A DNA stretch of 64,000 bases from NCBI GenBank assembly GCA_947498705.1, contig CANMLW010000002.1:124001-188000 (forward strand), in the 5' to 3' direction. The stretch comes from an uncultured Aquimarina sp. (GTDB lineage Bacteria; Bacteroidota; Bacteroidia; Flavobacteriales; Flavobacteriaceae). Positions 28,661-59,468 of this stretch are shown here, piece after piece (positions within the stretch are counted from its first letter, which is position 1; every line of letters begins with the position of its first letter). Below the pieces are notes generated by a model. That model searched no databases. It saw only the letters and a list, made by a program, of their open reading frames with translations, and was not told where the DNA came from. The position numbers were made by a program, and so were the translations under genes.

Positions 28661-28781
28661 ATCTATATTTTAATATTAACTCTCGGGTAAAGAGTTAGAT
28701 ATAGTTGGAGCCTTGTACAAAAAATGTATTAAGAGTTCTTTTTATTTCTATGCCTTTTCCCACTTAACTTTAATTTTATCA

Positions 28782-39956: not shown

Positions 39957-40685
39957 TTATGCAGAGGTTTGCACTTTCATAAACTCAAGCCAATGTAAAG
40001 GCTCATGTAGTTGAAGACTATTAAACTCTAAATGAATTACACGTCTTTGTTTGTCGTTAAGCGTTCTGTTTGAAGCATGTAAGGTAAGAGGTTTCATAAG
40101 CATGATTCCTCCTTTTTTTACTTCGCAAATATGTTCTTTTTTGGTGTCCCATTCTTTCGATTCGACTCTTATAATTCCTTCTAAGTGTGATTTTGGAATT
40201 ACTTTTAAGGCTCCATTGTTTTTATCAGTATCGTCTAAGTGAATTCTTAGGGTTATCGTATTCTGTAGAATATGAAGAGGTGGTTGCACCCCATATTGTC
40301 CTTTTTTAAAAGTCCAATTCTTATAGTTATCCAGATCTGTTTTTTGGTCAACAGAAATACTTAAATCCTGATGATAAGCCACAAACCAGTTTGACATACT
40401 AGGTTTATCAAAGTAAATGGCTTTGGTTAGAAAGTAATCTGATGTCGAAAAACTATTAATTAATGTAATAAGTTTTTGATTAAACAATAAACCTGATAAT
40501 TCAGGGATATTTTTCATCAATTGCCGAATCGCAAATAAATCCTTTGTTTTATGAAACGAATTACTATTCTGTTCGGCTTGTGCTATGCATTCTATTATTT
40601 GGTCAATTTCTGTGTTAGAATATATACTTTCTACAATGGCAAATCCATTTTCTTCTAGTGTTGTTTTGTTTGTTATATAGTTCAT
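39957..40685 (-). CDS. Phytanoyl-CoA dioxygenase-family oxygenase
   Basis: 242 residues. The iron-binding triad is H-Q-D (AYHQDLSI) and the distal His in KPLTLHASNRT; the 2-oxoglutarate Arg may be in NDKQRRVIHLEF. GALKVIPKSHLEG is the typical PhyH loop. It is a non-haem Fe(II)/2-oxoglutarate oxygenase of unknown substrate. It precedes the sulfatase gene and directly follows cobN (20-bp gap), so it may be the last gene of the cbiA-cobN transcript by position only. Substrate not deducible. Confidence 0.88.
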   Translation of the reverse strand: MNYITNKTTLEENGFAIVESIYSNTEIDQIIECIAQAEQNSNSFHKTKDLFAIRQLMKNIPELSGLLFNQKLITLINSFSTSDYFLTKAIYFDKPSMSNWFVAYHQDLSISVDQKTDLDNYKNWTFKKGQYGVQPPLHILQNTITLRIHLDDTDKNNGALKVIPKSHLEGIIRVESKEWDTKKEHICEVKKGGIMLMKPLTLHASNRTLNDKQRRVIHLEFNSLQLHEPLHWLEFMKVQTSA

Positions 40686-40705
40686 ATGTTTTTGTATTAA
40701 AAAAA

Positions 40706-43700
40706 CTATTCCACAATCCCTTCACTTTCCAAATACAATTCTTCTAGCTGTTCTTTGATTTCATCAGAAGGATTTGCCCACATTCCCCTTTGTATGGCTT
40801 CGAGTAGTCGTTCACTCATATCTTTAAGAGCCCAGGGATTATTTTGTTGTATAAATTCTTTGTTTTCTGGAGTCAGTAAATAACTTTCTGTAATACCTTC
40901 GTACATAAAATCATCGATAAGATTGGTGGTTGCATCATAGGCAAACAGGTAATCTAAGGTTGCTGCCATTTCGAAAGCACCTTTGTATCCATGTCTTTGT
41001 ACACCCTTGATCCATTTTGGATTAACTACTCGAGAACGGTATACTTTTAGCAATTCTTCTTTCAATGTTTTTATTTTAGGAGTTTCGGGTCTCGAGTGAT
41101 CTCCAAAATAAATCTCGGCTTCATCACCTTTAGTTGCTTTTACCGCATTTGCCAATCCCCCATGAAATTGGTAATAATCATCACTATCCAGAATATCGTG
41201 TTCCCTATTATCCTGATTTTGCATGACAATTTGCATGGCTTGCAATCTATTTTGAAAAGATTCATGTGCAGAAACTCCTTTTTTAGAATTACCATAGGCA
41301 TATCCACTCCAATTAATATATACCTTGGCAAGATCTTCTTGTGTTTTCCAGTTTTTCTCATCGATTACGGCTTGTAGTCCTGCTCCATACGCACCTGGTT
41401 TAGATCCAAACACTCGATATAGGGCTCGTTGTGATGCTTCTTCCTGTGGTAGACCTTGTTCTTGCCATTGACGCTGTTCTTCTAAAAAACGCTTTCGAAT
41501 CGGATTGTCTTCTAAAGGCTCATCAAGATTTGCTAACCGTGTGACTACTGCATTAAATAGGTTAATCACATCTGGGAAAGCATCTCTAAAAAAACCCGAG
41601 ATTCTAAGCGTAACATCTACTCTTGGTCTGCCCAATTTGATGAGTGGTACTACCTCAAAATCTGTTACTCTACGATTTGCATTTTTCCAAATAGGCCGAA
41701 CACCCATTAGTGCAAATGCCTGCGCAATATCATCTCCTCCTGTACGCATGGTAGATGTACCCCAAACAGAAACCCCGATCGTTTCTGGATAGTCTCCATT
41801 TTCTTGTAAATATCGATCGATAATCAACTGGGCACTTTTCTCTCCGAGGCGATATGCTGTTTCTGTAGGAATGGTACGTACATCTACAGAATAGAAATTT
41901 CGCCCTGTTGGTAATAAATCTAATCGGCCTCTAGTAGGGGCTCCAGAAGGACCAGAGGGCACATAATGACCATTTAAACCATCTAATAAAAACTGTAATT
42001 CGTCGGTGGTCTGCTGTACTTTTTGTAAGGTGTTATTTTTAATAACTTGCAGCATTTCACTTAATAATGGATAAGACTTTGGTAGTATTCCATTTTCAAG
42101 AAATTGGATTAGAAGCTTTTTTGCAATAGTTTCTAATTGAGCAACAACTTGTCCCGCTGTTTTGCAAAAAGCGCCTTCAATGGTAAGGTTCATCACTTCT
42201 GTATAGGGGATTTCTAGTATATTTTCTTTGATGCCCAAATCTTTTGCAAGTACTTGTGTAATTCCTTCTTGGTGATAGCCCGGTACACGATGCAATGCAA
42301 TAAGTAAATCAATTAATTGCTCATCGACAGGCGCTTTTCCGAAGATATGTAACCCATCTCTAATCTGTGCTTCTTTCAGCTCGCATAAATATCCATCTAG
42401 TTTCACTAATAATTCATCTACATCATCAGACGAAATCCCTAAATCTACATTTAGCTTCGTTTCCTTTACCAATAGGGAAATTTCTTTTTCTAGTACTCGA
42501 GATCGTTTCGGGTCTAAAGAAGAGGCTTCGTAGTATTCATCGACCAAATGTTCTAGTTTCATCAAACTACCATAACTTTCTGCCCTAGTCATTGGTGGGA
42601 TCAAATGATCTATAATCACGGCTTGGTTTCTTCTTTTAGCCTGCGTTCCTTCTCCCGGGTCATTAATGATAAAAGGATAGAAGTGTGGTAAGGCTCCAAA
42701 CACAGCTGCCGGGAAACAAGATGCTGGATCTAGCGATACGCTTTTACCAGGTAACCACTCGAGATTACCATGTTTTCCTAAATGAATGACCGCATCTGCA
42801 TGATATTCTTGTTGTAACCAAAAATAATACGCCAAATATTGATAGGTAGGTGGTAAATCGGGAGAATGATAAATGGCTTGTGGATCTTGGTTATATCCTC
42901 TGGAGGGTTGGATACTAACAAAAATATTTCCTACTAAAAACCCTGATACGATAAAACCAGTACCTGTAAAATAGGGATCCTCTTCTGGTGTGCCCCATTG
43001 CTCTATTACTTTTTCTCGTAACTCTTTTGATAATGCCGAAAAACAATTTTGAAAATCTTTGTGGTCAAAAACCAACGAATGAGGTCGAGTCATCGTTGTT
43101 GCGACATCGTTGGTAGTCATTTGCGTAATCCAATGCATTAATTCGGTACCGCTGGTTGGTAACTGCTCACCTACATCATATCCTTTGGTTTTAAGAGCAT
43201 CTAATAAAACGATACAACTCTCTGGGGTATCTAATCCTACACCGTTTGCCAGGCGACTATCTTTATTAGGGTAGTTGGGTAAAATAACCGCTACTTTTTT
43301 TTCGCTATTCTTTTTATATTGTAATGTGGCCCATCGCTGTGCCAGTTCGGCCATAAATTCGCAAGCAGGAATATGGGCTTCGTATTTTAAGATCGAACTA
43401 TCGGTAAGGTCATCTTTTTCGACTTCTTTTTTAAAGGAAACGGCACGACCAATGATACGTCCATCAATTTCTGGTAAAGCGATATTCATGGCAATATCTG
43501 TAGGTGGCAACCCAAAAAGTCCTTCTTCCCAAACTTCTTTATTTGCGGTAGAGAATATGGCTTGTAGGACGGGTACTTTTAGTTTTTCAAAAATAAACTC
43601 AGAACCATCCATGGGTTTGATGGTAAATCCTGTGGTATTAATAATGGTATGTATGGGGCGCTTACCAGTATTGGTCATCAATCGTTCTACCTGTTCTAAT

Positions 43701-44452
43701 AGTTTAACATCTCTAAGGTTACTGGCAAAAACAACGAATGCATTCATTTTTTGAGCATTTAATGCTTCACTCATTGCTTGTAGTGGTGACATATTATCGG
43801 CTAGATAATGGGCGCGATATGCCAGTAATACTACATTGGGTTTGTCACTATCCAAAGAGGATGCTAGCATTTCTTGAGTAACCATTCCAGCATCTATAGT
43901 ATATAAAAATACATCGGCGATTGACTGGGCCGGAGCAATATCGATGTTGGTATCAAAAAAGGTGTTTCGTAGATAGTTAAGGAATGCTATCGCATTTTCT
44001 TTTCCTCCTTCTTGTAGATATTGTCGAGATTGATGTACAATTTGTATCTCTGCAGAAGATAATTTCATCAATTCAAAATCGGGTTCGTGAGCTGGTAAAA
44101 ATAAAACAGTGTTACCAACACGTTCTTGTAGCGTAACCAATGATTCTACTAAGTATTTGTAATAGCTAAGCCCTCCTAACATACTACACACAATTACCTT
44201 TGCTTTTTCGAGTACTTCTTCGAGATAGGTATCGATCGTTAGTTCTTGTTTTAGGTAAACAAGGTTGGTCATTCGCAGGCTTGGTAAGGTGTCACCTTCT
44301 GCCTTGTGTAATTCTTTATATGCCTCGTTTATGGTATGAATTTCAGTATCACCAGCACTTAAAAAAACGATGTCTCCTGGTTGTTGTTCTATATAAAAAA
44401 TCCCATCATCATTAGGGTTCCACCCTCCGGGTATGGTTGCGATTAGATGCAT
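40706..44452 (-). CDS. cobN: Cobaltochelatase subunit CobN
   Basis: 1248 residues from ATG 44452; the frame opens farther upstream, but this start (MHLIATIPGGWNPNDDGIFY) overlaps the end of cbiA by 10 bp in the usual coupling pattern. CobN/ChlH hallmarks: LPAHEPDFELM, HSLVFDHKDFQ, DAVIHLGKHGNLEWLPGKS, IDHLIPPMTRAESYG, GRNFYSVDVRTIPTETAYRL and GVSVWGTSTMRTGGDDIAQA. It is the large corrin-binding subunit inserting cobalt into hydrogenobyrinate a,c-diamide with an ATPase (CobS/CobT). Here the ATPase is probably the ChlI/ChlD fusion at 55334-56998. Only the early-insertion chelatase CbiX would otherwise be expected, so two chelatase types coexist. Confidence 0.95.
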   Translation of the reverse strand: MHLIATIPGGWNPNDDGIFYIEQQPGDIVFLSAGDTEIHTINEAYKELHKAEGDTLPSLRMTNLVYLKQELTIDTYLEEVLEKAKVIVCSMLGGLSYYKYLVESLVTLQERVGNTVLFLPAHEPDFELMKLSSAEIQIVHQSRQYLQEGGKENAIAFLNYLRNTFFDTNIDIAPAQSIADVFLYTIDAGMVTQEMLASSLDSDKPNVVLLAYRAHYLADNMSPLQAMSEALNAQKMNAFVVFASNLRDVKLLEQVERLMTNTGKRPIHTIINTTGFTIKPMDGSEFIFEKLKVPVLQAIFSTANKEVWEEGLFGLPPTDIAMNIALPEIDGRIIGRAVSFKKEVEKDDLTDSSILKYEAHIPACEFMAELAQRWATLQYKKNSEKKVAVILPNYPNKDSRLANGVGLDTPESCIVLLDALKTKGYDVGEQLPTSGTELMHWITQMTTNDVATTMTRPHSLVFDHKDFQNCFSALSKELREKVIEQWGTPEEDPYFTGTGFIVSGFLVGNIFVSIQPSRGYNQDPQAIYHSPDLPPTYQYLAYYFWLQQEYHADAVIHLGKHGNLEWLPGKSVSLDPASCFPAAVFGALPHFYPFIINDPGEGTQAKRRNQAVIIDHLIPPMTRAESYGSLMKLEHLVDEYYEASSLDPKRSRVLEKEISLLVKETKLNVDLGISSDDVDELLVKLDGYLCELKEAQIRDGLHIFGKAPVDEQLIDLLIALHRVPGYHQEGITQVLAKDLGIKENILEIPYTEVMNLTIEGAFCKTAGQVVAQLETIAKKLLIQFLENGILPKSYPLLSEMLQVIKNNTLQKVQQTTDELQFLLDGLNGHYVPSGPSGAPTRGRLDLLPTGRNFYSVDVRTIPTETAYRLGEKSAQLIIDRYLQENGDYPETIGVSVWGTSTMRTGGDDIAQAFALMGVRPIWKNANRRVTDFEVVPLIKLGRPRVDVTLRISGFFRDAFPDVINLFNAVVTRLANLDEPLEDNPIRKRFLEEQRQWQEQGLPQEEASQRALYRVFGSKPGAYGAGLQAVIDEKNWKTQEDLAKVYINWSGYAYGNSKKGVSAHESFQNRLQAMQIVMQNQDNREHDILDSDDYYQFHGGLANAVKATKGDEAEIYFGDHSRPETPKIKTLKEELLKVYRSRVVNPKWIKGVQRHGYKGAFEMAATLDYLFAYDATTNLIDDFMYEGITESYLLTPENKEFIQQNNPWALKDMSERLLEAIQRGMWANPSDEIKEQLEELYLESEGIVE

Positions 44453-45765
44453 ATATTTTCTTGTTTTAACCCAAACTCTGTAGTAGGATTTATTGCTGCC
44501 CAATACAAATGAATGTAGCTTGCATAAACGTTTTTATATCTATAAATTTTTGTGGTAACTTCTTTTTCTCTCGCCGAAAATACCTGGGCTACGGTTGCTA
44601 TTTCATCATCGTTCAATATGCTGGAATAATGAAATTCATGCCCCCAAATTTCTACTTCATTAAAGCGTACTTTTCGATATCCTAATGATAGCTTTTTGTT
44701 TTCCATAGAAGTACTAAACTCAAATACACCTGCCATTGGATGTGCTTTGCCGTTTTCATCAATAATCGAGTTTCCCAAATACATCATCCCTCCACATTCG
44801 GCAAAGATTTTTACTCCTCGATTTGCTGCTTCTTTAATTTGGGTTCTCATCTGGGTATTCTGAGATAGTTCTTGCAGGTATAATTCTGGATAACCACCTG
44901 CCAAATATATATAATCTGCTTCAGGAAGTATGGTATCTTTTATAGGGCTGAAGTAAACTATATTTCCTATGGTTTCTAACCATTTTAAATTTTCTAAATA
45001 GGTAAAACTAAAGGCCGCATCTTTGGCAATTGCAATAGTTTTGGCTTTGACTTTGGGAGTTGTTTTTTGAGTCTTTATTTCTTTTCGAAAACTTTGAGTG
45101 TTTTGCGATAGCTCTAAAAGATCTTGAATAGAAATATGATCTGCAATATGTGTAGCTGCTTTTTCAATAACGGTTTCAAAGGTATCGTCTATATGCAATC
45201 CTAAATGCCGAGACGGAATGTTAATGTCATCATTGGGCGGGATATATCCCAGAGATTGAATACCCACCGTATCACAGGCTTCTTTTAGAAAAGAATAGTG
45301 CGAAGCTGTTTTTACAAAATTAAAGATAACTCCTGCTATCTTCACCTCGGGATCAAAGGTCTTTAACCCATGTAAAATGGGCGCGATTGTATACGCCATA
45401 CTACGGGCATTAACCACCAAAATAACCGGAATATCCAATAATTTGGCAATCGATGCCGAGCTTCCCTGATCTTTTACAGCCCCATCAAACAATCCCATGA
45501 CACCTTCTACAATACTAATATCGGCTTGCTGTTGATATTTTTTGAAAACCTCGATTACATGATCTTCAGGCATCATTATGGTATCCAGATTAACAGCGGC
45601 TTGTCGCGCTGCAGTACTGTGATGTATGGTGTCGATATAATCTGGTCCACATTTAAAAGGTTGTACACTATACCCTTGATTAACAAACCAACGAGACAAA
45701 CCCAGTGTAAGGGTTGTTTTTCCTGAGTTGCTCCAGGGGGCCGCGATTAAAAATGCTTTGGACAT
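44443..45765 (-). CDS. cbiA: Cobyrinate a,c-diamide synthase (CbiA/CobB type)
   Basis: 440 residues. It amidates the a and c carboxylates of (hydrogeno)cobyrinic acid with glutamine and ATP. The N-terminal domain has the P-loop KAFLIAAPWSNSGKTTLTLGL and VQPFKCGPDYID, EGVMGLFDG; the C-terminal amidotransferase has the nucleophile motif FAECGGMMYLG and EFHYS near the end. Whether the natural substrate has cobalt cannot be told from sequence; with CobN downstream, hydrogenobyrinic acid is possible. The promoter is at 45794-45824. Confidence 0.94.
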   Translation of the reverse strand: MSKAFLIAAPWSNSGKTTLTLGLSRWFVNQGYSVQPFKCGPDYIDTIHHSTAARQAAVNLDTIMMPEDHVIEVFKKYQQQADISIVEGVMGLFDGAVKDQGSSASIAKLLDIPVILVVNARSMAYTIAPILHGLKTFDPEVKIAGVIFNFVKTASHYSFLKEACDTVGIQSLGYIPPNDDINIPSRHLGLHIDDTFETVIEKAATHIADHISIQDLLELSQNTQSFRKEIKTQKTTPKVKAKTIAIAKDAAFSFTYLENLKWLETIGNIVYFSPIKDTILPEADYIYLAGGYPELYLQELSQNTQMRTQIKEAANRGVKIFAECGGMMYLGNSIIDENGKAHPMAGVFEFSTSMENKKLSLGYRKVRFNEVEIWGHEFHYSSILNDDEIATVAQVFSAREKEVTTKIYRYKNVYASYIHLYWAAINPTTEFGLKQENICI

Positions 45766-46002: not shown

Positions 46003-48837
46003 ATGAGAAATAGATTACGAATACTACTACTTGTTTTTTTATGGATCCCCTTAATAAGCTATGGTCAGGAAGGTATTGTATCGGGAGTTTTATTACATGA
46101 TGATGGTAACCCATTACCTGGAGCTAATATCTATGTGAAAGGAGGTAGTCTTGGTACTTTAACAGATTTTGATGGAAATTATAGGATAGAATGCAAGGTT
46201 GGCGATATACTTGTTTTTTCTTTTGTAGGTTTATTAAACAAAGAAGTGGTGGTAACTCCCGAAATGTTTAATGGGGTATCAGAAAGAGGCATATCATATA
46301 TTTCTGTAACACCAGTAACTTCTGATGCGTATGCTAAAGCTGTTAAGAATATTAAAAAGGCATCGTATACTATTCAAACTGTTGAGAATTCGAATATTAC
46401 CTATAATAAAAATAACTCCTATTTTCAGTACAATAGAATTAAAGGGATAGCTATAGAGAAGGATAAAGTAAACTTAACATACTTCCGTCCAGATGTATAT
46501 TTTGAGGTTGGTTATCGGCCAAGTTTTGGAGTTCGATATATAAGAGATAAAAATCTTCCAGAATTGCAGCGATCTTATAGTCAGGGAACTCCTCTAAATG
46601 GAGCACTTTCTTTTCAGGGAGCCGAAACAGGTAACATTTTTTCATATGGGCCTTTACTAAATACACTCGAATTTGATGGAAATACATATTTGTATGATAG
46701 TAATGGAGCATTGGTAAATACCGGTACAGGCAACGGAAATCCATCGAGTAGTTATGATAATTCTTTATTAGAAACCACATATAACAATTCTCACAAAGTA
46801 TTTTTTAATATTTCAACAGATGCAGAACTCTTTGGGTTTGATTTTTTAAATGAAAATTCTAAAGACATATACGATAGAGAACGAAATACTAATAATAGGT
46901 TAATGGCGAGCTATAAAAAGAAAAAACGGTACAATACTATGGGTTGGAATTCTTTTATTACCTATCAAACCATTAGGGATAATCAACCTAATAGTAACGG
47001 TTTTCAAAATAACCTTCTTCTTAATCAATGGGCCACACCACCTTCTTTTAGCAATCAGCAGGGAACCATACTACCTGATACTAGTCAAAGGAGTTTTAGC
47101 ACATCGTTTAACAATCCTCTATGGTTACTAAATAATCATCGTAATATGATAAAAGACCGATCTTTTACTGCCAGTATTCAGAATGATATGGATATTACCA
47201 ACGAGATTGGATTAGAAAGTAAATTAAGTTATAACTATACTAAACAAAAGCAAGAATTTGGAGTAACAAAAGGAACAGTTGGTTTTGAAAATGGTTTTTT
47301 GAGTCATAAAGATATTGAGACTCAAAAAATAAATGCTGTAATTAACTTTGATTATTCCGGATACCTTAACAATAATAAGATTGGATTAAAATCGATCGTT
47401 CATTACAACTATGATGATTTAAAGTTTTTATTTCAGCAATCTTCTGGTTTCGAAAATTTTACATTTAATAACCCTTTAAGTAGTCTAGAAATCAATCAAT
47501 CAATATCCAGAAATACCGTTAGACTACTACATCAATTTCGATATGAGATACATAACGCCTGGGAATTTAAGTTCATGAATAACTCTTATTATTCATCTAT
47601 TCAGGATAATAATTGGTTTTTGCCATCCTTATCTCTAAAGGTTGATCTGAAAGAATTATTCAATATATATGGTATTAATAAACTTTTGATATCTTCTAAT
47701 ACTTCATTTGATATCAATGACAACCCTCTTTATTATAGTAATTTAAGTCACAATAGTCTGTTGATAGCTCCAGAAGAAAGTTTAACCAATACATCAAACA
47801 ATGATTTATTTATTGATGCTTCGATTGATCTTGAGAAGAAAGAGAATTACGAACTAAATGCATCCTTTGGTCTCTATCTTTTAGGAGGTAATACAAACGT
47901 TGATATTACTTATTATGATTCAAAAACAAAAGGAAGTGTATTTCCTGTTATAGATAATGGTGTTTTTCAATTAAAAAATGTAGCCGATATAAGAACCAAA
48001 GGCTTCGAATTTACTATCGATTCAAGAATAAGGTTAGGCGATGAGTTTTATTACCAGCCAACTATATCTTTTTCTACCTATAACACCGAGACGCTAGAAG
48101 TGGCAGATAATTCTGAACGAATACCGATAGCAGGATTTTCAACAGTTTCGAAAAATTTGATAGTAGGAGAGTCTGCAGGGGTACTTATTGGGTCTGCGTA
48201 TGCACGAGATAACCAAAATAATGTGATTATTGGTGATGATGGATTTCCTTTGGTGGCGGCAACTCAGCAAATAATTGGAGATCCAGTCCCAGATTATAAT
48301 ATTGGGATTAACAATACTTTTGAATGGAAAAAATTAGAACTTAACGTTGTTGTAGATGTTCAAAAAGGAGGAGATATCTGGAACGGAACCCAAAATGTAT
48401 TGAATTACCTAGGTACATCTGAGCAATCTGCTGTAGAACGAAATACCAACAATTATGTTTTTGCTGGAGTTGATCAACAAGGAAATGCAAATACAATCCC
48501 AGTAGATTTTTACAACCCAAATAATCCAATTTCTGAAAATCGATTTGTACGATATGGCTTTGCAGGTGTTGCCGAAGAAGCAATTGTCGACGCAAGTTAT
48601 ATCAACATAAAGTCGGTAGATATTTCATACACACTTTTTGATGATAATGATAACAAAGAACGTTTTTTACGAGAATGTAGATTAGGAGTATACACAAAGA
48701 ATATATATACATGGTCAAAATATAGAGGCCATACGCCTTATAGTAGCCTTTATGGGAATTCATCTGGTCAGGAGCTTAATTTTTTTAATACCCCGCTTCA
48801 GAGCGAGATTGGGCTCACCTTAAAGTTAAAAATATAG
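46003..48837 (+). CDS. SusC-type outer-membrane barrel lacking the plug domain
   Basis: 944 residues. A signal peptide (LLLVFLWIPLISYG) leads to a CarboxypepD_reg-like domain (~24-90: GVLLHDDGNPLPGANIYVKG, TLTDFDGNYRI). Normal SusC/RagA proteins next have a plug of ~120 residues (LQGxxAGV, EPLYVVDG, VLKDASAxAIYG); here none of those motifs is present. The chain passes over a short helical stretch (SDAYAKAVKNIKKASYT) directly into barrel sequence (FRPDVYFEVGYRPSFGVRYI, then SYGPLLNTLEFDG) and ends as SusC barrels do (QSEIGLTLKLKI). There is no SusD neighbour. The missing plug is found in the next gene, 2 bp downstream. Role: probably a gated outer-membrane pore working with that protein. Confidence 0.85.
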   Translation: MRNRLRILLLVFLWIPLISYGQEGIVSGVLLHDDGNPLPGANIYVKGGSLGTLTDFDGNYRIECKVGDILVFSFVGLLNKEVVVTPEMFNGVSERGISYISVTPVTSDAYAKAVKNIKKASYTIQTVENSNITYNKNNSYFQYNRIKGIAIEKDKVNLTYFRPDVYFEVGYRPSFGVRYIRDKNLPELQRSYSQGTPLNGALSFQGAETGNIFSYGPLLNTLEFDGNTYLYDSNGALVNTGTGNGNPSSSYDNSLLETTYNNSHKVFFNISTDAELFGFDFLNENSKDIYDRERNTNNRLMASYKKKKRYNTMGWNSFITYQTIRDNQPNSNGFQNNLLLNQWATPPSFSNQQGTILPDTSQRSFSTSFNNPLWLLNNHRNMIKDRSFTASIQNDMDITNEIGLESKLSYNYTKQKQEFGVTKGTVGFENGFLSHKDIETQKINAVINFDYSGYLNNNKIGLKSIVHYNYDDLKFLFQQSSGFENFTFNNPLSSLEINQSISRNTVRLLHQFRYEIHNAWEFKFMNNSYYSSIQDNNWFLPSLSLKVDLKELFNIYGINKLLISSNTSFDINDNPLYYSNLSHNSLLIAPEESLTNTSNNDLFIDASIDLEKKENYELNASFGLYLLGGNTNVDITYYDSKTKGSVFPVIDNGVFQLKNVADIRTKGFEFTIDSRIRLGDEFYYQPTISFSTYNTETLEVADNSERIPIAGFSTVSKNLIVGESAGVLIGSAYARDNQNNVIIGDDGFPLVAATQQIIGDPVPDYNIGINNTFEWKKLELNVVVDVQKGGDIWNGTQNVLNYLGTSEQSAVERNTNNYVFAGVDQQGNANTIPVDFYNPNNPISENRFVRYGFAGVAEEAIVDASYINIKSVDISYTLFDDNDNKERFLRECRLGVYTKNIYTWSKYRGHTPYSSLYGNSSGQELNFFNTPLQSEIGLTLKLKI

Positions 48838-48839
48838 AT

Positions 48840-51800
48840 ATGAAAGAATCAGGATATAAATTGCTAGTAGTAGGTATCGCCCTATTTTTTATGGGTTTAT
48901 CGATGCCATTAAAAGCTCAGGAAGTAGAAGACTGCGTGATAGAAAAGATATATACGCAAACTGATAGATCTTTTTATTTTCCGGGAGAAACTATTTGGTT
49001 TAAATCTTATGTGGTAGGTATAGATAATACCATTTCGATATTGAGCGATATCATGTATGCCGAATTAATTTCACCACAGGGAAGCACTGTAAAAACAATC
49101 AAATTATCGATTCACCAGGGATATGCTTATGGTGATTTTATGATCGATAAAGATTTGGTTGGTGGTATCTATAGCATTAGAACGTTTACTAATTGGATGC
49201 GTAATTATGAAAAAGAAGCGGTATTTACCAAGAAGATTACGGTACAAAAAATTGTAAAACCCAATGTGTTATTGTCCTTAGAGTTTGAAAAAGAAGGATA
49301 TGGAAAATCATCGTGGGTTACTGCAAGTTTTGATGTTAAAGATTTAAAAAACAACCCAATAAGTAATACAGATGTTACGTATAAAGTATCTGTAAAAGGA
49401 AACGTTATCCAATCAAAAAATATACTTACCAATATAGAAGGAAAAGCAAACATACGATTTCAACTTCCTGATAACTTAGCATCACGAGATGTAGTCTTAA
49501 TTGTTCAAATTCCTCATAAAGGAACTACAGAATCAATTTCTAAAAGTGTTCCTGTTGTTTTGAATACGATAGACCTGCAATTCTTTCCGGAAAGCGGAAA
49601 ACTATTAGAAGGTATTAAAAGCCAAGTGGCTTTTAAGGCGATAGACGAATTTGGAAAACCTGTAGCTGTAGAAGGAAATATTATAAATAATAGCGGGACT
49701 GTGGTAACATCGTTTGCTAGTTTTCATGATGGGATGGGATCTTTTTACCTTACCCCTGTTACAAACGAAAAATATTATGCAGAAATAAAAGCTCCATTCA
49801 CTTCAGAAGAAAGAATATCGTTTCCTAAAATTTATAAAGATGGGGTAAATTTTGCCGTAAGTTCTGATTCCTTGGTCACAAAACTTCATGTACATTCTAC
49901 ATTAACAAAACCATTGTATTTAGAAGTTTCTAATGCCTGTAAGATACTATTAAAACAAACTATCAAAAGTGGGCAAGATATCATTGATATTGATACACAG
50001 AATTTTCCCATTGGAATTACAACATTTAGTATTACCGACAAAAATCAAAACCCATTAGCAGAACGACTGGTTTTTATCAATGCACATAAACAGCTAACTA
50101 TTGATGTACAATTGGACAAGGAAATTTATCAAACTCGTGAAAAGGTAAAAGTAGCTATACTCACAAAAGATAAGGATAATTGTCCCGTTCCTTCAAATTT
50201 GTCTATTGCAATTGCAGATAATAAACTATTGTCTTTTGCAAATGATAAACAAGATCATATTTTATCGTACCTATTATTGTCATCTGAATTAAAGGGAAGC
50301 ATATATAAACCGAGCTTCTATTTTAATCCAAAAGAGAAAAAATCGTATCAAGCAATAGATTATGTAATGTTAACCCATGGTTGGAGAGATTATATGCTGA
50401 AACCATTACCTATTGAAGAAGCTCAATATAAACCAGAACAATTGGCAACTCAATCAGGAAAAGTGGTTGATCGTAAAGGAAACCCGGTAGCAGCAACTTT
50501 GTTATTGTTTGATGAACAAGGAAATAAAGTCTTAGTCTTTAAAAGCGACAGTAACGGTGATTTTTCCTTTAAGTTTGACAAAAGCCATCGCTTAACCCTT
50601 ATTGCCTATACAGAAAAGGGAAGAATGTTAGAGATCATTGAAAGTGAAAAAACAAAAGGGTACTTTAATAATATTCCTGTAAGTAACACTAGAACAGAGT
50701 CGCAAGAATATAAAAATATGCCTTCAAAATTTAATACTCCTGTCCAGCAACCAATTAAGAAGGAGGCAAAGGCATCTGTTGCTTTATCAGAAAGTAGTTC
50801 GAGTCTTGATGAAGTCGTTATTATTGAGTCGGCAATGAGCAAAAGAAAGCTAATTAGTTCCTCTATTGTTAAAATTGAGACCCATGAAATAGGAAGTAAT
50901 CAATCTGTAGCACAATTGTTACAGGGACAAATAGCAGGTGTTGTTGTTGTAAATGACAATAGAATTCAAGGTAGTGGTGCAGGAATAGCTATAAGAGGCG
51001 CAAATTCGATCTCTGGAAACAATGAACCATTAATAGTGGTAGATGGTGTTCCTTATGCTACCAATGTTTTGTCCAAATTAAGCGGTAAAGAAGTGCATAG
51101 TGTTACTGTCCTAAAGAATACAGCTGCTACTGTTTTATATGGCAGTACAGCTGCCAATGGTGTTGTTGTGGTTGCCACAAAAAGCCAAAGTTTTAATGGT
51201 AATTGGGGTAAAAAGAAATTGAATAATGCCAAGTATAACAATTATGCCATTAAGACCTTTTATAATTACCAACCTTCTGGTTTGTATCTTGCCAAACAGT
51301 TTTATACCCCAATGTATCTTGGAGAAAAACTCCCCAAAGAGCGTAATGATTTTAGACAAACCATTTATTGGAATCCCGTTGTACAAACCGATGAAAATGG
51401 GAAGGCCGAGATTGAGTTTTATAATTCTGATGCAATTACCTCTTTTCAAATTATAGCTGAAGGAGTAGGTTATAATGGGTTAGTGGGTAGACAAAAGAAA
51501 GTCTATGCGACCAAAAAGCTTTTGAATGTAGATTTTAAAGCCCCTAATTATATGGTATTAAATGATACCATTACTTTACCGGTTACTATAACGAATGAAA
51601 CCACTCAAAAGATAGCTACAAAGTTAACAATTGAATTACCAGAGCATCTAAAATTGCTAGAACCTTTTACTGAAAACATAACCATAGAAGCCAATAGTTC
51701 GATAGTTCAACACGTAAAAGTTATTCCGATAAAAAAAGCAGAAAAAGTACATGTTGCACTTGCATTAGCATCTGATGAGTTTTCTGATTTTGTAAAAAGA

Positions 51801-53408
51801 GAAACTACGATTCTAAGTCCTTATTTTCCGACCCAGGTTTCTGTTTCTGGAGTCAAATCACAATCCTTTCAGTTTTCTATAGACAATATGGTAAAAGGTA
51901 GTCTTAAAGCTAACTTTGCATTATATACAGATATTATAGGTGATGTTATGGATGGTATAGAAGGAATCATAAGAGAACCCTATGGTTGTTTTGAGCAAGT
52001 GTCGTCAAGTACCTACCCCAATATTTTGGTGTTAAAGTATCTTAAGGAAACCAATAAAAGTAATCCCGAGATAGAGAAAAAAGCATTAGATTTTATAAAG
52101 AAAGGATATAAAAAACTAGCGGCTTATGAAACTGCTCAGGATGGTTTTGAATGGTATGGCGGTACCCCTCCTCATGAAGCATTAACAGCCTATGGGTTAA
52201 TGGAGTTTACAGAGATGAAAGAAGTATATGAAGGAGTTAGTGAACCTATGCTACAAAGAACAATCAAGTATCTTCTAAGTCGTAAAAATGGAAAAGGAGG
52301 TTTTAAACAAAACAGAGGGAAGTATGGTTTTTCTGCCGCTCCAGAGAACGTAAACAATGCCTATATTGTATATGCTATAAGCGAATCGGGGGTAGAGGTA
52401 AATATCGAAGAAGAGTATAATCATACCTATAATGAGGCGTTAAAAAGTAATGATACCTATAGAATGGCATTGATGGCATGTGCTAGCTTTAACCTTGGTA
52501 GACTAGAAAATGCAGCGTTATTACTTACTAATATCAAGAAAAATATTGAAAGCTATGGTTTCTCTAATTTACCAGTAGATAATACCATTACACGCTCTTA
52601 TGGAAATGCAAAGAATATCGAAACTGCAGCTTTTTCATTATTGGCATTGATGAAAAAAGAAAATTACGATACGTTTTTAGTAACTCAAGGTGTTGATTAC
52701 TTGGTGAGTATGCGCAAACATAATAGATTTGGTTCTACACAATCTACATCAATGGCCTTAAAGGCATTGGTAGTATATACCAGAAGTCAAAAAACTAAAA
52801 TGATTACCAAGAATGATTTTGTTACGTTAACTCTTAATGGTAAGGTACTAAACAAACAATTAAATAGTTCTAAAAACGGAAAAATTGTCATTGATAATAT
52901 AGCGTCGTATATTATAGAAGGAAATCAAAATTTGCAAGTTCAGTTTTCAAATCCCGAAATTACATTTCCCTATTCACTAAACGTTACCTATGATAGCTTT
53001 TTGCCCGACTCTGCCAAAGATGCTTCATTGGCATTAAAAACTACTATAGCAGATAAAGACTATAAGGTAGGAGATAATGTAAGCATGACGATTGATGTTA
53101 TCAATAAGAAAAATGAACACCTGGGGATGGTAACTTCGATCATTGGAGTACCTTCTGGAACCACGCCGCAACCGTGGCAGTTAAAAGAACTAGTAGAACA
53201 AAATAAGGTAGCTTATTATGAGATATTTGATAATTATCTGGTGTTTTATTGGAGGTCTTTTAAAGCACTAGAAACAAATACTATTCGTTTGGATTTGAAG
53301 GCTGATATCGCAGGTAGCTATCAATCACCAGCAAGTACCGCATATTTGTATTATGGCGATGAGTTTAAAACCTGGATTTCTGGAAACAAACTAGAAATTA
53401 AGAATTGA
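48840..53408 (+). CDS. Alpha-2-macroglobulin-like protein with thioester and embedded SusC-type plug
   Basis: 1522 residues. Order of parts: signal peptide (1-26); macroglobulin-type beta domains (~27-530) opening with FYFPGETIWFKSYVVG; CarboxypepD_reg-like domain (~540-605: GKVVDRKGNPVAATLLLFDE); a plug (~655-783) with LDEVVIIES, AQLLQGQIAGVVVV, SISGNNEPLIVVDGVP and VTVLKNTAATVLYGSTAANG; the A2M core (~845-1000: TIYWNPVVQTDENGKAEIEF, YMVLNDTITLPVTI); the thioester domain with P-Y-G-C1050-F-E-Q1053; then the terminal receptor-like domain (~1370-1522). A2M proteins trap proteases by covalent thioester attack. The plug suggests it docks into the plugless barrel just upstream. No lipobox, so periplasmic or outer-membrane associated through the barrel. 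The combination is rare in my knowledge. Confidence 0.88.
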   Translation: MKESGYKLLVVGIALFFMGLSMPLKAQEVEDCVIEKIYTQTDRSFYFPGETIWFKSYVVGIDNTISILSDIMYAELISPQGSTVKTIKLSIHQGYAYGDFMIDKDLVGGIYSIRTFTNWMRNYEKEAVFTKKITVQKIVKPNVLLSLEFEKEGYGKSSWVTASFDVKDLKNNPISNTDVTYKVSVKGNVIQSKNILTNIEGKANIRFQLPDNLASRDVVLIVQIPHKGTTESISKSVPVVLNTIDLQFFPESGKLLEGIKSQVAFKAIDEFGKPVAVEGNIINNSGTVVTSFASFHDGMGSFYLTPVTNEKYYAEIKAPFTSEERISFPKIYKDGVNFAVSSDSLVTKLHVHSTLTKPLYLEVSNACKILLKQTIKSGQDIIDIDTQNFPIGITTFSITDKNQNPLAERLVFINAHKQLTIDVQLDKEIYQTREKVKVAILTKDKDNCPVPSNLSIAIADNKLLSFANDKQDHILSYLLLSSELKGSIYKPSFYFNPKEKKSYQAIDYVMLTHGWRDYMLKPLPIEEAQYKPEQLATQSGKVVDRKGNPVAATLLLFDEQGNKVLVFKSDSNGDFSFKFDKSHRLTLIAYTEKGRMLEIIESEKTKGYFNNIPVSNTRTESQEYKNMPSKFNTPVQQPIKKEAKASVALSESSSSLDEVVIIESAMSKRKLISSSIVKIETHEIGSNQSVAQLLQGQIAGVVVVNDNRIQGSGAGIAIRGANSISGNNEPLIVVDGVPYATNVLSKLSGKEVHSVTVLKNTAATVLYGSTAANGVVVVATKSQSFNGNWGKKKLNNAKYNNYAIKTFYNYQPSGLYLAKQFYTPMYLGEKLPKERNDFRQTIYWNPVVQTDENGKAEIEFYNSDAITSFQIIAEGVGYNGLVGRQKKVYATKKLLNVDFKAPNYMVLNDTITLPVTITNETTQKIATKLTIELPEHLKLLEPFTENITIEANSSIVQHVKVIPIKKAEKVHVALALASDEFSDFVKRETTILSPYFPTQVSVSGVKSQSFQFSIDNMVKGSLKANFALYTDIIGDVMDGIEGIIREPYGCFEQVSSSTYPNILVLKYLKETNKSNPEIEKKALDFIKKGYKKLAAYETAQDGFEWYGGTPPHEALTAYGLMEFTEMKEVYEGVSEPMLQRTIKYLLSRKNGKGGFKQNRGKYGFSAAPENVNNAYIVYAISESGVEVNIEEEYNHTYNEALKSNDTYRMALMACASFNLGRLENAALLLTNIKKNIESYGFSNLPVDNTITRSYGNAKNIETAAFSLLALMKKENYDTFLVTQGVDYLVSMRKHNRFGSTQSTSMALKALVVYTRSQKTKMITKNDFVTLTLNGKVLNKQLNSSKNGKIVIDNIASYIIEGNQNLQVQFSNPEITFPYSLNVTYDSFLPDSAKDASLALKTTIADKDYKVGDNVSMTIDVINKKNEHLGMVTSIIGVPSGTTPQPWQLKELVEQNKVAYYEIFDNYLVFYWRSFKALETNTIRLDLKADIAGSYQSPASTAYLYYGDEFKTWISGNKLEIKN

Positions 53409-55333: not shown

Positions 55334-56998
55334 TCAAAAATCAGAAATGGTATTGTAATTAAGACGTAATTGTTGTGCCAACTGTTGTGCTTTGCCTAAT
55401 CGTACAAAACCAGTTTCGGTATCTATAACAGTAGTTTTTTGGATTCGAGCTAGGTACTTTTTATAGGTGTCTATTGCATACTGAAATGGGTTTTGTGCTC
55501 CAGTATTTATTTTACCATCTGTAAAAACAAATAGTTGTACCGTTTGTGTATTGATGGATCGTATCAATTCATACACCTTAAAAAAAGCGGCGCCCAAATT
55601 GGTTTTACCTCCTGTTTTTAATTGATAATTGGTTGCTGAAACTTGCTGCGTATTAGATGTAAATTCCTGAACTATTTTTGCTGTAGTCCCCTGTAAACCT
55701 ACAATAGCATATTGTACTTTTTTAAAGGGTTGAGCAGTAATTGTTTTTTCGATAACTCCTTTTAGATATCCTATTTGTTGATCTATTGCCATAGAGGCAC
55801 TGGTGTCTATCAAAAATACAATATTGGCCGTTGCCTTTTTGTTTGCTTGCTGGTATATCGCAGTAAATTTACCTGTACTAAGGTAATTCTTAATCGATTT
55901 AATTACCGAAATTTCGGGTTGTCGTTGTGCCGGGTACGATACAGAAGGTTGATAGGATGAGGTATCTAGTTTGATTTCTTGTTTTTTGGTGGCTTTTGGT
56001 GCCGAAAATTTTAGACCTTGCTGCACCGCTTTCGGTAACTGAAAAGAAGCAGTACTTTGCCCATTTTGAGTGGTTGTTTCTTCTTCTGAAGTAGGGTTAT
56101 CCCGATTAGAAGGTGTTTCCTTATCTTGATCAGAAGGAGGAGTATATTCTTTTGCACGATGTTGCAATACAAAAGGGGCTATGGTATCCACCATTTCTAA
56201 GGTTACTTCTGCCTGATTAAGATAGGCCGCATAAGCCCTTGCTGTTTTTAGTAATAAGATATCAGCACGCATTCCCTCTACTTGATTAGCAATCGTTAAA
56301 GCCGCACATCGCTCTTGTACGATTTCAGAAATGGTAATTGTATTTAATTGTTGTTTTGCTAAAAGAACCTGCTTCTTAATTGTCTGCTCTTCGGTTTCAA
56401 ATTGCTTATAAAATGTAACAGGATCACTATCAAAATCAAGGCGTTGCATGGCAATTTTGGTACGTGTTTTTACATCTTTTGGTGTTTGGATGGTGACACT
56501 TAATCCAAACCTGTCTAATAACTGCGGGCGTAATGCCCCTTCTTCAGGGTTCATGGTTCCTACCAAACAAAAACGACTATCCATCCATTGGGAGATCCCT
56601 TCTCGTTCCAGATGATATCCTCCGGTTGCAGAGGCATCCAATAATACATCCATCAAATAATCATTCAGTAAATTGACCTCGTCGATATATAAAAAACCTT
56701 GGTGTGCTTGTGCTAATAATCCTTTATCTACAATCGTAGTTTTTTGATTGATCAACGCTTCCAGATTAATACTGCCTAATACCCGATCCTCTGTAGCTCC
56801 AATGGGTAGATTTACAAAAGGAAAATCTGTGCCCATCAATTGGCTTAATCCTCGTACCATAGTGGTTTTGGCAGTTCCTTTGTCTCCTGTAGCTAATACC
56901 CCACCGATACTGGGATCAATAAGGTTAAGTAACAAACAGAGTTTTAGATCTTCCTGGTTAAGAATAGCAGTAAAGGGATATATATATTTGGATTGCAT
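55334..56998 (-). CDS. Chelatase ATPase with AAA+ and VWA domains (ChlI/ChlD fusion type)
   Basis: 554 residues. Residues ~20-300 are an AAA+ ATPase with Walker A ATGDKGTAKTT, Walker B FLYIDEVNLL, RPQLLDRFGLSVTI (sensor/arginine finger region). A polar linker (~300-360) leads to a VWA domain with a MIDAS-type IVFLIDTSASM (~390-400), TNLG and FTDGK. Such BchI-BchD-like single proteins occur next to CobN genes in genomes without CobS/CobT. It is probably the motor for CobN (40706-44452). The gene is 10 kb from cobN in the same orientation, so the complex is split across the genome. Confidence 0.9.
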   Translation of the reverse strand: MQSKYIYPFTAILNQEDLKLCLLLNLIDPSIGGVLATGDKGTAKTTMVRGLSQLMGTDFPFVNLPIGATEDRVLGSINLEALINQKTTIVDKGLLAQAHQGFLYIDEVNLLNDYLMDVLLDASATGGYHLEREGISQWMDSRFCLVGTMNPEEGALRPQLLDRFGLSVTIQTPKDVKTRTKIAMQRLDFDSDPVTFYKQFETEEQTIKKQVLLAKQQLNTITISEIVQERCAALTIANQVEGMRADILLLKTARAYAAYLNQAEVTLEMVDTIAPFVLQHRAKEYTPPSDQDKETPSNRDNPTSEEETTTQNGQSTASFQLPKAVQQGLKFSAPKATKKQEIKLDTSSYQPSVSYPAQRQPEISVIKSIKNYLSTGKFTAIYQQANKKATANIVFLIDTSASMAIDQQIGYLKGVIEKTITAQPFKKVQYAIVGLQGTTAKIVQEFTSNTQQVSATNYQLKTGGKTNLGAAFFKVYELIRSINTQTVQLFVFTDGKINTGAQNPFQYAIDTYKKYLARIQKTTVIDTETGFVRLGKAQQLAQQLRLNYNTISDF

Positions 56999-57097
56999 CA
57001 GTGGCTGTGATTTTGATCATAACTGATGGTAAAAGTACGGAAATATATTAGTACCGTACCAAGAGTGATACGGCAGTATATCCTAACAATGTTTTAA

Positions 57098-57676
57098 TCA
57101 ATTAGGAGCAAAATTATTAGGATCTATGATATGAAAAACATCTTGGATACCAATAATATACTCATACCTATCTTTGATAGGTTTTTTCTGAAAAGCACTA
57201 AAATTTAAATTTTGATTTGTAGAATTTACCAGACGCAATTCATGAACAATATTTAAATAATTAGCATCATCTGTTTTTTCTGAAATTCGTAAACGAATAT
57301 TTCTTTTAGGACAAATTGAAATACCCGGATTTACGTTAGGGTTTTTTGAAGTTATTTTCTGAAACTGAGTTGCAAGATGATGAGGTAATTCGACATATTC
57401 AGAAAAAATGTGCACATAAAAGAATCGTTCACAGTCCATACTTTCTTGATCAATCACAGCATCTATGATGTCTTTTTTATGGCTTTGCAAAAAATCTAGT
57501 AGCTCTATATATACATCTATGTTTTTTGTTTTATCAATACGATCAACTTCTTGTTGTAAAACTTCTGCGATTTTTTCGGGTGTGGCTGGTTCTTCCGGAA
57601 AGAAAGTGCTGATTAGAAAGGGTACAGCAATAATGCCCACTAAAAATATAAATAAGATCAGACACCCTTTTTTCAT
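57098..57676 (-). CDS. Hypothetical single-pass membrane or secreted protein
   Basis: 192 residues. A single hydrophobic segment (CLILFIFLVGIIAVPFLIS, 5-23) could be an uncleaved anchor or signal, then a soluble part beginning FFPEEPATPEKIAEVLQQEV. No family recognised. It lies 99 bp downstream of the chelatase ATPase start on the same strand, with no clear functional tie to its neighbours. Confidence 0.65.
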   Translation of the reverse strand: MKKGCLILFIFLVGIIAVPFLISTFFPEEPATPEKIAEVLQQEVDRIDKTKNIDVYIELLDFLQSHKKDIIDAVIDQESMDCERFFYVHIFSEYVELPHHLATQFQKITSKNPNVNPGISICPKRNIRLRISEKTDDANYLNIVHELRLVNSTNQNLNFSAFQKKPIKDRYEYIIGIQDVFHIIDPNNFAPN

Positions 57677-57748
57677 AGCATTAGTATTAACTGAATTTTT
57701 ATCAGGCGAAAATACGAATTATACCTAGAAAATATGATGTACCCTATT

Positions 57749-58084
57749 TTACAGATTAGAGCCTCCTTTTTTCTGTTCTCTTAGGTATAGAAATAGAGGA
57801 AGTCCCCCAGCAATACCTAGGGCAAACGTATATATCCACACCCAGTATATATTTTTCATTTTATAGCGTTTAGATTCTTTATAAGACCAAACCAAAAACA
57901 ACACAACAATAAACAATAAATCAGTAACAAATGCAGAAGAAATATTATTAGCAAACATGCCATTAAACGTATCTATCGGTTTTGTATAGAGTAGATAGTT
58001 TCCTGTGTTCATCGATTCTAATACGACAAAAATATTGGGTAAGATTGTACCTATTATCAATAAGACGAGATATGTTTTTTTCAT
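57749..58084 (-). CDS. Small membrane protein, DUF2834-like
   Basis: 111 residues with three hydrophobic helices: LVLLIIGTILPNIFVVLES, FVTDLLFIVVLFLVWSYKES and YWVWIYTFALGIAGGLPLFLYL. The order FANNISSAFVTDLLF...W is like the DUF2834 family of uncharacterised inner-membrane proteins. It follows the Crp-type regulator gene by 66 bp, so the pair may be one transcript. Function unknown. Confidence 0.7.
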   Translation of the reverse strand: MKKTYLVLLIIGTILPNIFVVLESMNTGNYLLYTKPIDTFNGMFANNISSAFVTDLLFIVVLFLVWSYKESKRYKMKNIYWVWIYTFALGIAGGLPLFLYLREQKKGGSNL

Positions 58085-58150
58085 GATTGAATATCTTTAT
58101 GTAGTGATATAAAGATATGAGGTGCACTACAAAAAGTTAATTGACGATCG

Positions 58151-58735
58151 TCAAGAAATGTCTTTGGATATAATTCTCTTTCTAATCCTACTTAGCGTTT
58201 CTGGGGTTACTCCCAAAAAAGTGGCCAATTGATATTGAGGAATACGTTGTAGTAACTCGGGGTTGGTCTGTACTAATTTGAGGTATCTTTTTTCGGCATT
58301 TAAGGTGATAAAAGACGCTATGATTTCCTGATAGACGATTAATTCTTCTTCCATCATTACTCTGGCTAGAAATTCGAATCTGGGAAACAATTCGAGAAGC
58401 TTATAGGCTACCTCATGTGTAATTATTGCAACCGAAGTGTTTTCGATTGCCTGTAAATAATGTTTTGACGGAGTTTGCCTGGTAAAACTTTCATACGAAC
58501 TAACAAACATATTTTCGAAGTAAAAATAGGCGGTTTTTTCTTCTATATCGGTTTTGTAAAATAGTCTGATGGATCCATTTATGATAAAATAAAACGCTTT
58601 GGATACTTCTCCTTCAGAAAGTAATAGTTCATCTTTCTCTATTTCTCTTATAGGTATATACGTTTTTATATAGTTTTTTTCATCTTCTGTAAGCGATGTA
58701 TGTTTTTCAAAAAATGTAAGTAAGGCTTCAATCAT
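58151..58735 (-). CDS. Crp/Fnr-family transcription regulator
   Basis: 194 residues. An N-terminal cyclic-nucleotide-binding fold (~20-115: EKDELLLSEGEVSKAFYFII, ENMFVSSYESFTRQTPS) is followed by a dimerisation helix (~120-140) and a short winged HTH (RIPQYQLATFLGVTPETLSRIRKRI). The phosphate-binding cassette is degenerate, so cAMP binding is not assured; in Bacteroidota such proteins respond to varied signals. Its promoter was not resolved. Its neighbours are the Ni/Co permease (upstream) and the DUF2834-like gene. Confidence 0.88.
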   Translation of the reverse strand: MIEALLTFFEKHTSLTEDEKNYIKTYIPIREIEKDELLLSEGEVSKAFYFIINGSIRLFYKTDIEEKTAYFYFENMFVSSYESFTRQTPSKHYLQAIENTSVAIITHEVAYKLLELFPRFEFLARVMMEEELIVYQEIIASFITLNAEKRYLKLVQTNPELLQRIPQYQLATFLGVTPETLSRIRKRIISKDIS

Positions 58736-58757
58736 TTGCTAAACTCCTAAGTATCGG

Positions 58758-59468
58758 TCAAAAAAGATTTCCTTGTAACATGATCAGTCCAATAATAATA
58801 GAGATGATACCTATCACCCCATTCATCCATTTAAAAATCGACATATTACGTTCTATAAAACGACTCATGGTAAAAATAAGTACATAGCTATATACCGCCA
58901 TCGAGATGATGATACCTATCGATTCTATGATCAAAATCAAAATAGCGTCAGATACTGTGTCTGCACTTATGATCAAAGCAGAGGTAAGTGCTCCTCCTGT
59001 TCCTGCAAGGCCGTGTAACATCCCAATCCAAAAAGATCGGTTGATGGGGTTCATTGCAATTTCTTCGCCCGATTTACCATGTAAATGAATGGGGTTACTG
59101 GCCAGATGTTCGTGTGCTTCTATTTTTTTATGATCAGCCATCATTTCATTGATCTTATGATTTCTGCGAATGGCCATAATACCGAGCCAAATCATAATAG
59201 GCCCCACAGAAAATTCTGCCCAAAAAGAGATGTTTTCTACAAAAGCGAGTAGTGCTGCTCTAAATAATAACGCGATCCCACCAAACAATAATAATGTTAC
59301 CGAATGCCCTAATGCCCATTGTGAAGCCGTAAGTACAGTTTTTAAGGATACTTTCTTTTTTTGGATAGCATTTTCTGCCGCCAATACAGAGACAGCCGAC
59401 ATATGATCGGGTTCGAAAGAATGTAACACGCCTGCAATCAGCGGACGAGCAAGGTTCATGATGTTCAT
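58758..59468 (-). CDS. Nickel/cobalt permease (RcnA/UreH/NicO-like)
   Basis: 236 residues with about six membrane helices. The metal motif HSFEPDHMSAV (H16-x4-D21-H22) is the NiCoT-type signature, and GMLHGLAGTGGALTSALIIS is a second conserved helix. A His-rich cytoplasmic loop (ADHKKIEAHEHLASNPIHLHG, residues ~106-126) may bind metal. The start overlaps the cbiD stop (59465-59468), so cobalt supply and corrin synthesis are translationally linked. Direction (uptake or efflux) cannot be told, but the context favours cobalt import. Confidence 0.88.
   Translation of the reverse strand: MNIMNLARPLIAGVLHSFEPDHMSAVSVLAAENAIQKKKVSLKTVLTASQWALGHSVTLLLFGGIALLFRAALLAFVENISFWAEFSVGPIMIWLGIMAIRRNHKINEMMADHKKIEAHEHLASNPIHLHGKSGEEIAMNPINRSFWIGMLHGLAGTGGALTSALIISADTVSDAILILIIESIGIIISMAVYSYVLIFTMSRFIERNMSIFKWMNGVIGIISIIIGLIMLQGNLF

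Follow-up and report, generated by a model that had tools for sequence, protein, structure and literature searches.

Within the window, a stretch of 64,000 nucleotides from an uncultured Aquimarina sp. (contig CANMLW010000002.1, positions 124,001 to 188,000), two adjacent genes on the forward strand encode proteins of 944 and 1522 amino acids, and their coordinates, reading frames and 2 bp spacing are as given in an earlier sequence-only reading of this DNA (Table 1). The first protein is a SusC-type barrel with its N-terminal domain, minus the plug, and the second, as judged from its sequence, is a thioester macroglobulin that carries a TonB box and a SusC-type plug. By the domains tested, each is a member of a known family, and in each case one element of that family is missing: the same-chain plug from the SusC protein, and the bait region from the macroglobulin. 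The TonB box in the macroglobulin chain is a feature additional to the description in the sequence-only reading.

Table 1. Features of the barrel–macroglobulin gene pair (positions in the window; residues are those of the encoded protein).
Feature	Position	Strand	Evidence
Plugless SusC-type barrel gene (944 aa)	46003..48837	+	CarbopepD_reg_2, no Plug; TIGR04056 215–980; AF2 22 strands; Foldseek 5fq6
N-terminal extension domain of barrel protein (CarbopepD_reg_2, residues 26–85)	46078..46257	+	Pfam 7.7e-12
Barrel strands (residues 166–943)	46498..48831	+	AF2 secondary structure
Macroglobulin gene with TonB box and plug (1522 aa)	48840..53408	+	Pfam, NCBIfam
MG2 domain (residues 36–127)	48945..49220	+	Pfam 1.4e-11
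CarboxypepD_reg-like stretch ahead of plug (residues 539–589)	50454..50606	+	Pfam 2e-05, under curated cut-off
TonB-box-like LDEVVII (residues 656–662)	50805..50825	+	Sequence; compare VDEVVV reported for Bt1763 (PMC7782687)
SusC-type plug (residues 674–775), bait-region slot	50859..51164	+	Pfam Plug PF07715 1.2e-12, above cut-off; TIGR04056
A2M domain PF00207 (residues 841–930)	51360..51629	+	Pfam 2e-11
Thioester domain TED (residues 1028–1313)	51921..52778	+	Pfam 7.4e-27
Thioester motif GCFEQ (residues 1049–1053)	51984..51998	+	Sequence; 49/49 pairs
C-terminal MG domain, bMG10-like (residues 1404–1508)	53049..53363	+	Pfam 0.00078, under curated cut-off

The sequence-only reading had described the barrel protein as plugless, and had named a plug-profile search of this protein beforehand as a possible refutation. 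Pfam gives no Plug match in it up to E 1, nor up to E 10 (a search in which the HMMER filters discard most matches above ~0.1), and the SusC/RagA model TIGR04056 is matched only over model positions 215–980, by residues 171–943 (149.1 bits, under the curated whole-protein cut-off of 368.25 bits). As a positive control, the ordinary TonB-dependent receptor at 28713–31043, which has its own plug and barrel, was matched by Plug at 1.2e-12, and the whole genome has 48 Plug matches. The AF2 model of the barrel protein, built from nine sequences (mean pLDDT 67, pTM 0.63), contains no plug and has 22 long strands by manual count, the first of which begins at residue 166, with residues 91–149 ahead of it modeled at low confidence. 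The top Foldseek match of this model is the SusC protein BT2264 of B. thetaiotaomicron (5fq6; E 7.0e-38, TM-score 0.59), and profile comparison, too, ranks this chain closest among those solved. The 22-strand barrel and the N-terminal extension domain are thus those of the SusC/RagA receptors, whereas the plug, TonB box and SusD partner gene of that class are missing from this chain and locus, the plug and TonB box being in the other protein.

The claim that the second protein combines a SusC plug with a thioester motif holds (Table 1). Its residues 635–883 match positions 57–318 of TIGR04056, such that the two proteins jointly span nearly all of the SusC model, which establishes their domain complementarity; the stretch shared by both matches (model positions 215–318) is probably a spurious extension. 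With the alpha-2-macroglobulin/complement class (A2M, A2ML1, C3, C5, CD109 and ECAM), the protein shares MG domains, an A2M domain and a TED with the CXEQ motif (MG2, A2M and TED are found in 9/9 members), but it differs in that the TonB box and plug replace the bait region or anaphylatoxin domain, and in that its gene partner is a SusC-type barrel. The thioester may be reactive, and by homology the protein would trap proteases. An AF2 model of residues 330–1522 (mean pLDDT 66, pTM 0.38) places the MG and TED parts mostly above 70, with no fold for the plug within the fragment (pLDDT mostly <50); the best Foldseek matches of this model are A2ML1, A2M, CD109, C5 and ECAM, at TM-scores that are low because the domain arrangement in the model is uncertain.

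Such a pair, with the gene of a plug-bearing thioester protein directly behind that of a plugless barrel, is found in many Bacteroidota. When the species collection was searched with the macroglobulin, the gene immediately upstream encoded the barrel in 8/8 relatives, and the surroundings differed among them (Robertkochia, two Tenacibaculum, Neptunitalea, three other Flavobacteriaceae and a Tannerellaceae MAG); the adjacency is therefore not due to chance. A sample of the phylum (392 genomes) yielded 50 matches, of which 5 encode a full-length thioester protein of this macroglobulin's family, four with plug and barrel and one (G133) with neither. The window's own family, with 395 genomes searched, gave 15 matches (the window, G021, G226 and 12 others), all of them continuous through the plug and with the barrel upstream (15/15). 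The class, with 396 genomes searched, gave 61, of which four run on through the plug without a break (G000, G021, G1026 and G1030) and 57 do not. Searching the order with the barrel instead gave matches at 1e-60 in 47/393 genomes, at 48 places among the best 2 candidates per genome. Dedicated barrels were found at 33 of these places (27 newly read and six already known from other searches), each followed by a plug macroglobulin (33/33), and nine further places hold ordinary SusCs with their own plug, the nearest intact ones that were read, which SusD follows in 9/9 cases, such that the macroglobulin gene in the pair occupies the place of SusD; the other six places are unread. We note that these searches scored the best candidates per genome only (2 in several of them), and the counts are thus of what was found.

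In total, 49 pairs were collected (L001–L008, L047–L049, L070–L079, L121–L147 and the window, with L067–L069, which are the same places as L008, L001 and L006, each counted once), so that the lack of recurrence, which the sequence-only reading had named as a refutation, did not occur. The barrel gene comes first, and the next gene encodes a macroglobulin rather than SusD, in all 49; the intergenic gap is 0–5 nt in 46 (2–5 nt in 43) and −1, −29 and −86 in the other three, the two larger overlaps probably reflecting early starts picked by the script. A scan for promoters and terminators found no more sites than in shuffles, and the operon structure is therefore putative, being read from the gene spacing. 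A Plug match is present in 0/49 paired barrels (48 searched by profile script and the window's by Pfam, which also finds none in 9/9 members), as opposed to 48/49 paired macroglobulins (47 by script and the window's by Pfam), and the GCFEQ motif is present in every paired macroglobulin. The strict TonB-box pattern occurs in 39/49 macroglobulins (0.5 expected by shuffling) and in 0/49 barrels (residues 81–180), and a loose pattern in 48/49 macroglobulins (7.7 expected) and 1/49 barrels (2.3 expected). The one macroglobulin without a Plug profile match is that of L007, in which a diverged plug-like stretch is seen in the alignment. This Tannerellaceae pair (L007:5806–12533) is unusual also in its 730-aa barrel without the N-terminal domain and in the 1 nt overlap of its genes.

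Thioester relatives outside the pairs provide a comparison. We read 41 that have no plug match, namely 40 of the class-level 57 (the other 17, also without a continuous match through the plug, are unread) and that of G133, and none of the 40 that could be checked has a barrel upstream; L115, with 278 nt of upstream sequence, cannot be judged, and L097, L101, L110, L111 and L117 offer 1056–2363 nt. In the 38 of these 41 with clear slot bounds, the place of the plug is taken by a low-complexity stretch of 142–407 residues in which A, K, E, V and N are frequent; we read this stretch as a bait region. A TonB-box-like motif is retained in 5/38 of these slots, compared to 0.03 expected by shuffling, which suggests that the plug was lost in those five. 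The plug-less proteins with a bait-like stretch are L081–L120 and L050, and one of them, L109, has a second CarboxypepD-like stretch as well as a TonB-box motif. Across pairs and relatives, Fisher's test for plug against barrel (48, 1, 0, 41) gives p ~6e-25 with rows treated as independent, which kinship violates. In the tree (FastTree, midpoint root, several weak nodes), the 41 plug-less relatives form one clade with a local support of 0.95, and the state of the barrel changes about twice and that of the plug about four times, such that the independent events are few.

Residues 835–1316 of the macroglobulin align to residues 16–537 of the C3b alpha' chain, which starts immediately after C3a; because of this alignment, the plug is assigned to the position of the C3 anaphylatoxin domain (C3a), or bait region. 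The disordered bait region itself is missing, and its slot holds the TonB box and plug in 48/49 macroglobulins, and a diverged version in L007. For human macroglobulin, the conformational change is reported to be triggered when the bait region, once cleaved, retracts from a central channel; in the complement factors, the cleaved region is described as the anaphylatoxin domain (PMC9352918). A plug in this slot may thus be a trigger element rather than a passive dock, and the linkers that flank it could be cleavable.

In SusC-type receptors, the TonB box ahead of the plug and the link between plug and barrel are both on the periplasmic side, and the plug is reached from the periplasm, which both its ends face. 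If the same holds here, both halves of the macroglobulin should be periplasmic. The SprA pore of the T9SS, which has a separate Plug protein, exports proteins, is built from protein families other than those of this pair, and, to our knowledge, functions without a macroglobulin. It resembles the pair in being a large outer-membrane barrel of Bacteroidota that is described as sealed by a separate protein, Plug (PMC10994853), and a permeable outer membrane is reported for a strain without PorV and Plug (PMC12611786). SusC barrels have been reported without a plug in the lumen in some states, in which the plug may be expelled (PMC7782687). From these SusC states, the T9SS Plug and the periplasmic topology, we infer a barrel that is plugged in trans and opened by TonB via the macroglobulin.

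We consider it probable, on the complementarity of the two sequences and the recurrence of the pair, that the genes encode a split receptor in which the plug of the macroglobulin closes the SusC-type barrel in trans, much as the sequence-only reading proposed. Both genes would then encode parts of a single outer-membrane machine, a divided SusC-type transporter, with the barrel in the outer membrane and a soluble periplasmic macroglobulin sealing it from below through its TonB box and plug. Force exerted by TonB on the macroglobulin's TonB box would withdraw the plug and open the pore; this withdrawal, or a cut beside the plug by an incoming protease, could also end the resting state of the macroglobulin and bare its thioester. 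The entering molecule, for which a protease or a cargo of peptide or protein is most plausible, could then be captured covalently beneath the pore. Taken on its own, the covalent trapping step is a tentative one, which we would rather doubt than assert. Arming of the thioester by plug withdrawal would follow from the plug being in the bait-region slot, and in its fullest form, this would be a TonB-powered complement-like gate in which the plug doubles as the thioester trigger, and withdrawal instead of proteolysis arms covalent capture; we regard this form as possible but unlikely. BT2264, the nearest solved barrel, is reported with oligopeptide ligands (PMC7782687), an observation in keeping with a theme of proteolysis but not enough to assign the cargo.

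A different account is that the macroglobulin plug is structural or vestigial and stays outside the barrel, which would itself be closed by loops or act as a pore, the two genes being linked for another reason. Several of our observations point this way, and hence against trans-plugging, including the failure of AF2 to fold the plug alone. Short Bacteroidota proteins of 779–975 aa have an MG part, mostly followed by a plug in the same place, without a TED; 19 were read from 23 short matches (the 4 excluded being other receptors matched via their plug), 12 of them with a plug score >30, and a barrel gene is upstream in 0/19. These proteins (L051–L066, e.g., L051:5927–8641, L054:6435–9107 and L057:6277–8745), many of which carry such an orphan SusC-type plug, indicate that the plug in MG proteins is older or wider than the pairing. 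A dedicated barrel elsewhere in the genome was considered for them and rejected: the barrel-profile matches >100 bits, among the matches listed for G1030 and for seven genomes that have short proteins, lie in frames of 1032–1182 aa, as long as ordinary SusCs are, and a plug is matched within several of these frames. G1030 holds an exception that also counts against trans-plugging: its thioester macroglobulin (L080) has the plug, with what reads from sequence as an MlaE-like permease gene upstream instead of a barrel. The contig with this locus is 7 kb long, in an assembly of 1670 contigs, and the strongest barrel matches of that genome were SusC-sized frames only, among the matches listed.

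The plug and barrel also show no sign of a common SusC ancestor, and simple fission of one SusC was rejected as unsupported, because a higher plug score does not go with a higher barrel score among 18 intact SusCs (Spearman −0.54, p 0.02). Co-variation with the barrel over 47 of the 49 pairs (omitting L007 and L127), given as partial distance correlation, is weak for the TonB box plus plug (0.23); two MG regions reach 0.40 and 0.38, the CarboxypepD-like part gives −0.21, and the TED and C-terminal domain are at ~0. With L007 omitted, conservation is highest (entropy 1.44) in lumen-facing residues of the barrel at a distance from the periplasmic end, as it is in 10 intact SusCs (0.86), but close to that end the lumen-facing residues vary more (1.79) than lipid-facing ones do (1.57), a pattern that is not decisive and speaks in part against a plug in the lumen. 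The few independent events on the tree, and the retention of the barrel in L007 beside a plug too diverged for the profile, weigh in the same direction. Against a vestigial plug, however, the neighboring gene supplies exactly the part of TIGR04056 that the barrel is missing, the plug remains recognizable in nearly all paired macroglobulins, and the thioester relatives that were read and found to lack it also lack the barrel wherever this could be checked. Taking these points together, we find it improbable that the plug has no role in closing the barrel.

The macroglobulin could instead be a surface-displayed protein, or one that is exported by way of the barrel, anchored by its plug and standing in for the SusD lid, as the position of its gene behind susC would allow. 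The sequence-only reading had entertained both display at, and release through, the pore, and it is this part of its split receptor that has become less likely, while domain complementarity and recurrence uphold the rest. A lipobox pattern is present in 0/49 macroglobulins, or 1/49 with a wider pattern that recovers 7/9 SusD controls, the bacterial macroglobulins described so far are reported as periplasmic (PMC4498604), and the topology of the plug, with both flanks periplasmic, favors a periplasmic macroglobulin over surface display, making this an explanation to which we give little credence. An artefact (assembly error, a frameshifted SusC or a chance domain match), for which we found no point in favor, can be dismissed, being refuted by the recurrence of the same architecture, in open frames, in 49 pairs from many genomes.

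If the plug does dock in trans, a TonB-dependent transporter can be split over two proteins and its gate given to a member of the complement family. This would couple outer-membrane transport to covalent capture in a new way, offer a natural separable plug for the study of plug movement, give bacteria a counterpart of the inserted domain of C3, and suggest a role for the many Bacteroidota proteins with MG domains and a plug. Were the gate also to work as outlined above, it would be, as far as our literature search shows, the first transporter to have a domain of a complement-family protein as its plug, and transport would for the first time be the trigger of a macroglobulin; that search of the full text of open-access papers (subscription papers and preprints being outside its scope), with its results judged by titles and abstract starts, listed no paper on such a system.

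Some further observations concern the barrel and the setting of the pair. A part for the barrel as a BAM component was considered and rejected, as BT2264 and other SusCs are the solved chains nearest to it, a comparison made for a near intact SusC as well; passages of Bacteroidota BAM papers do not contain the word macroglobulin. The neighbors of the pair in the window, on the other strand at 39957–45765 and 55334–60562, encode CobN, a CobB/CobQ-type amidotransferase, CbiD and an AAA-VWA chelatase-like protein, and a PhyH protein and a methyltransferase are also nearby; these cobalamin-type surroundings do not explain the pair. Finally, many sampled genomes of one genus of the order, labeled g18, carry the pair (most of L123–L147), which may be common or fixed in this genus.
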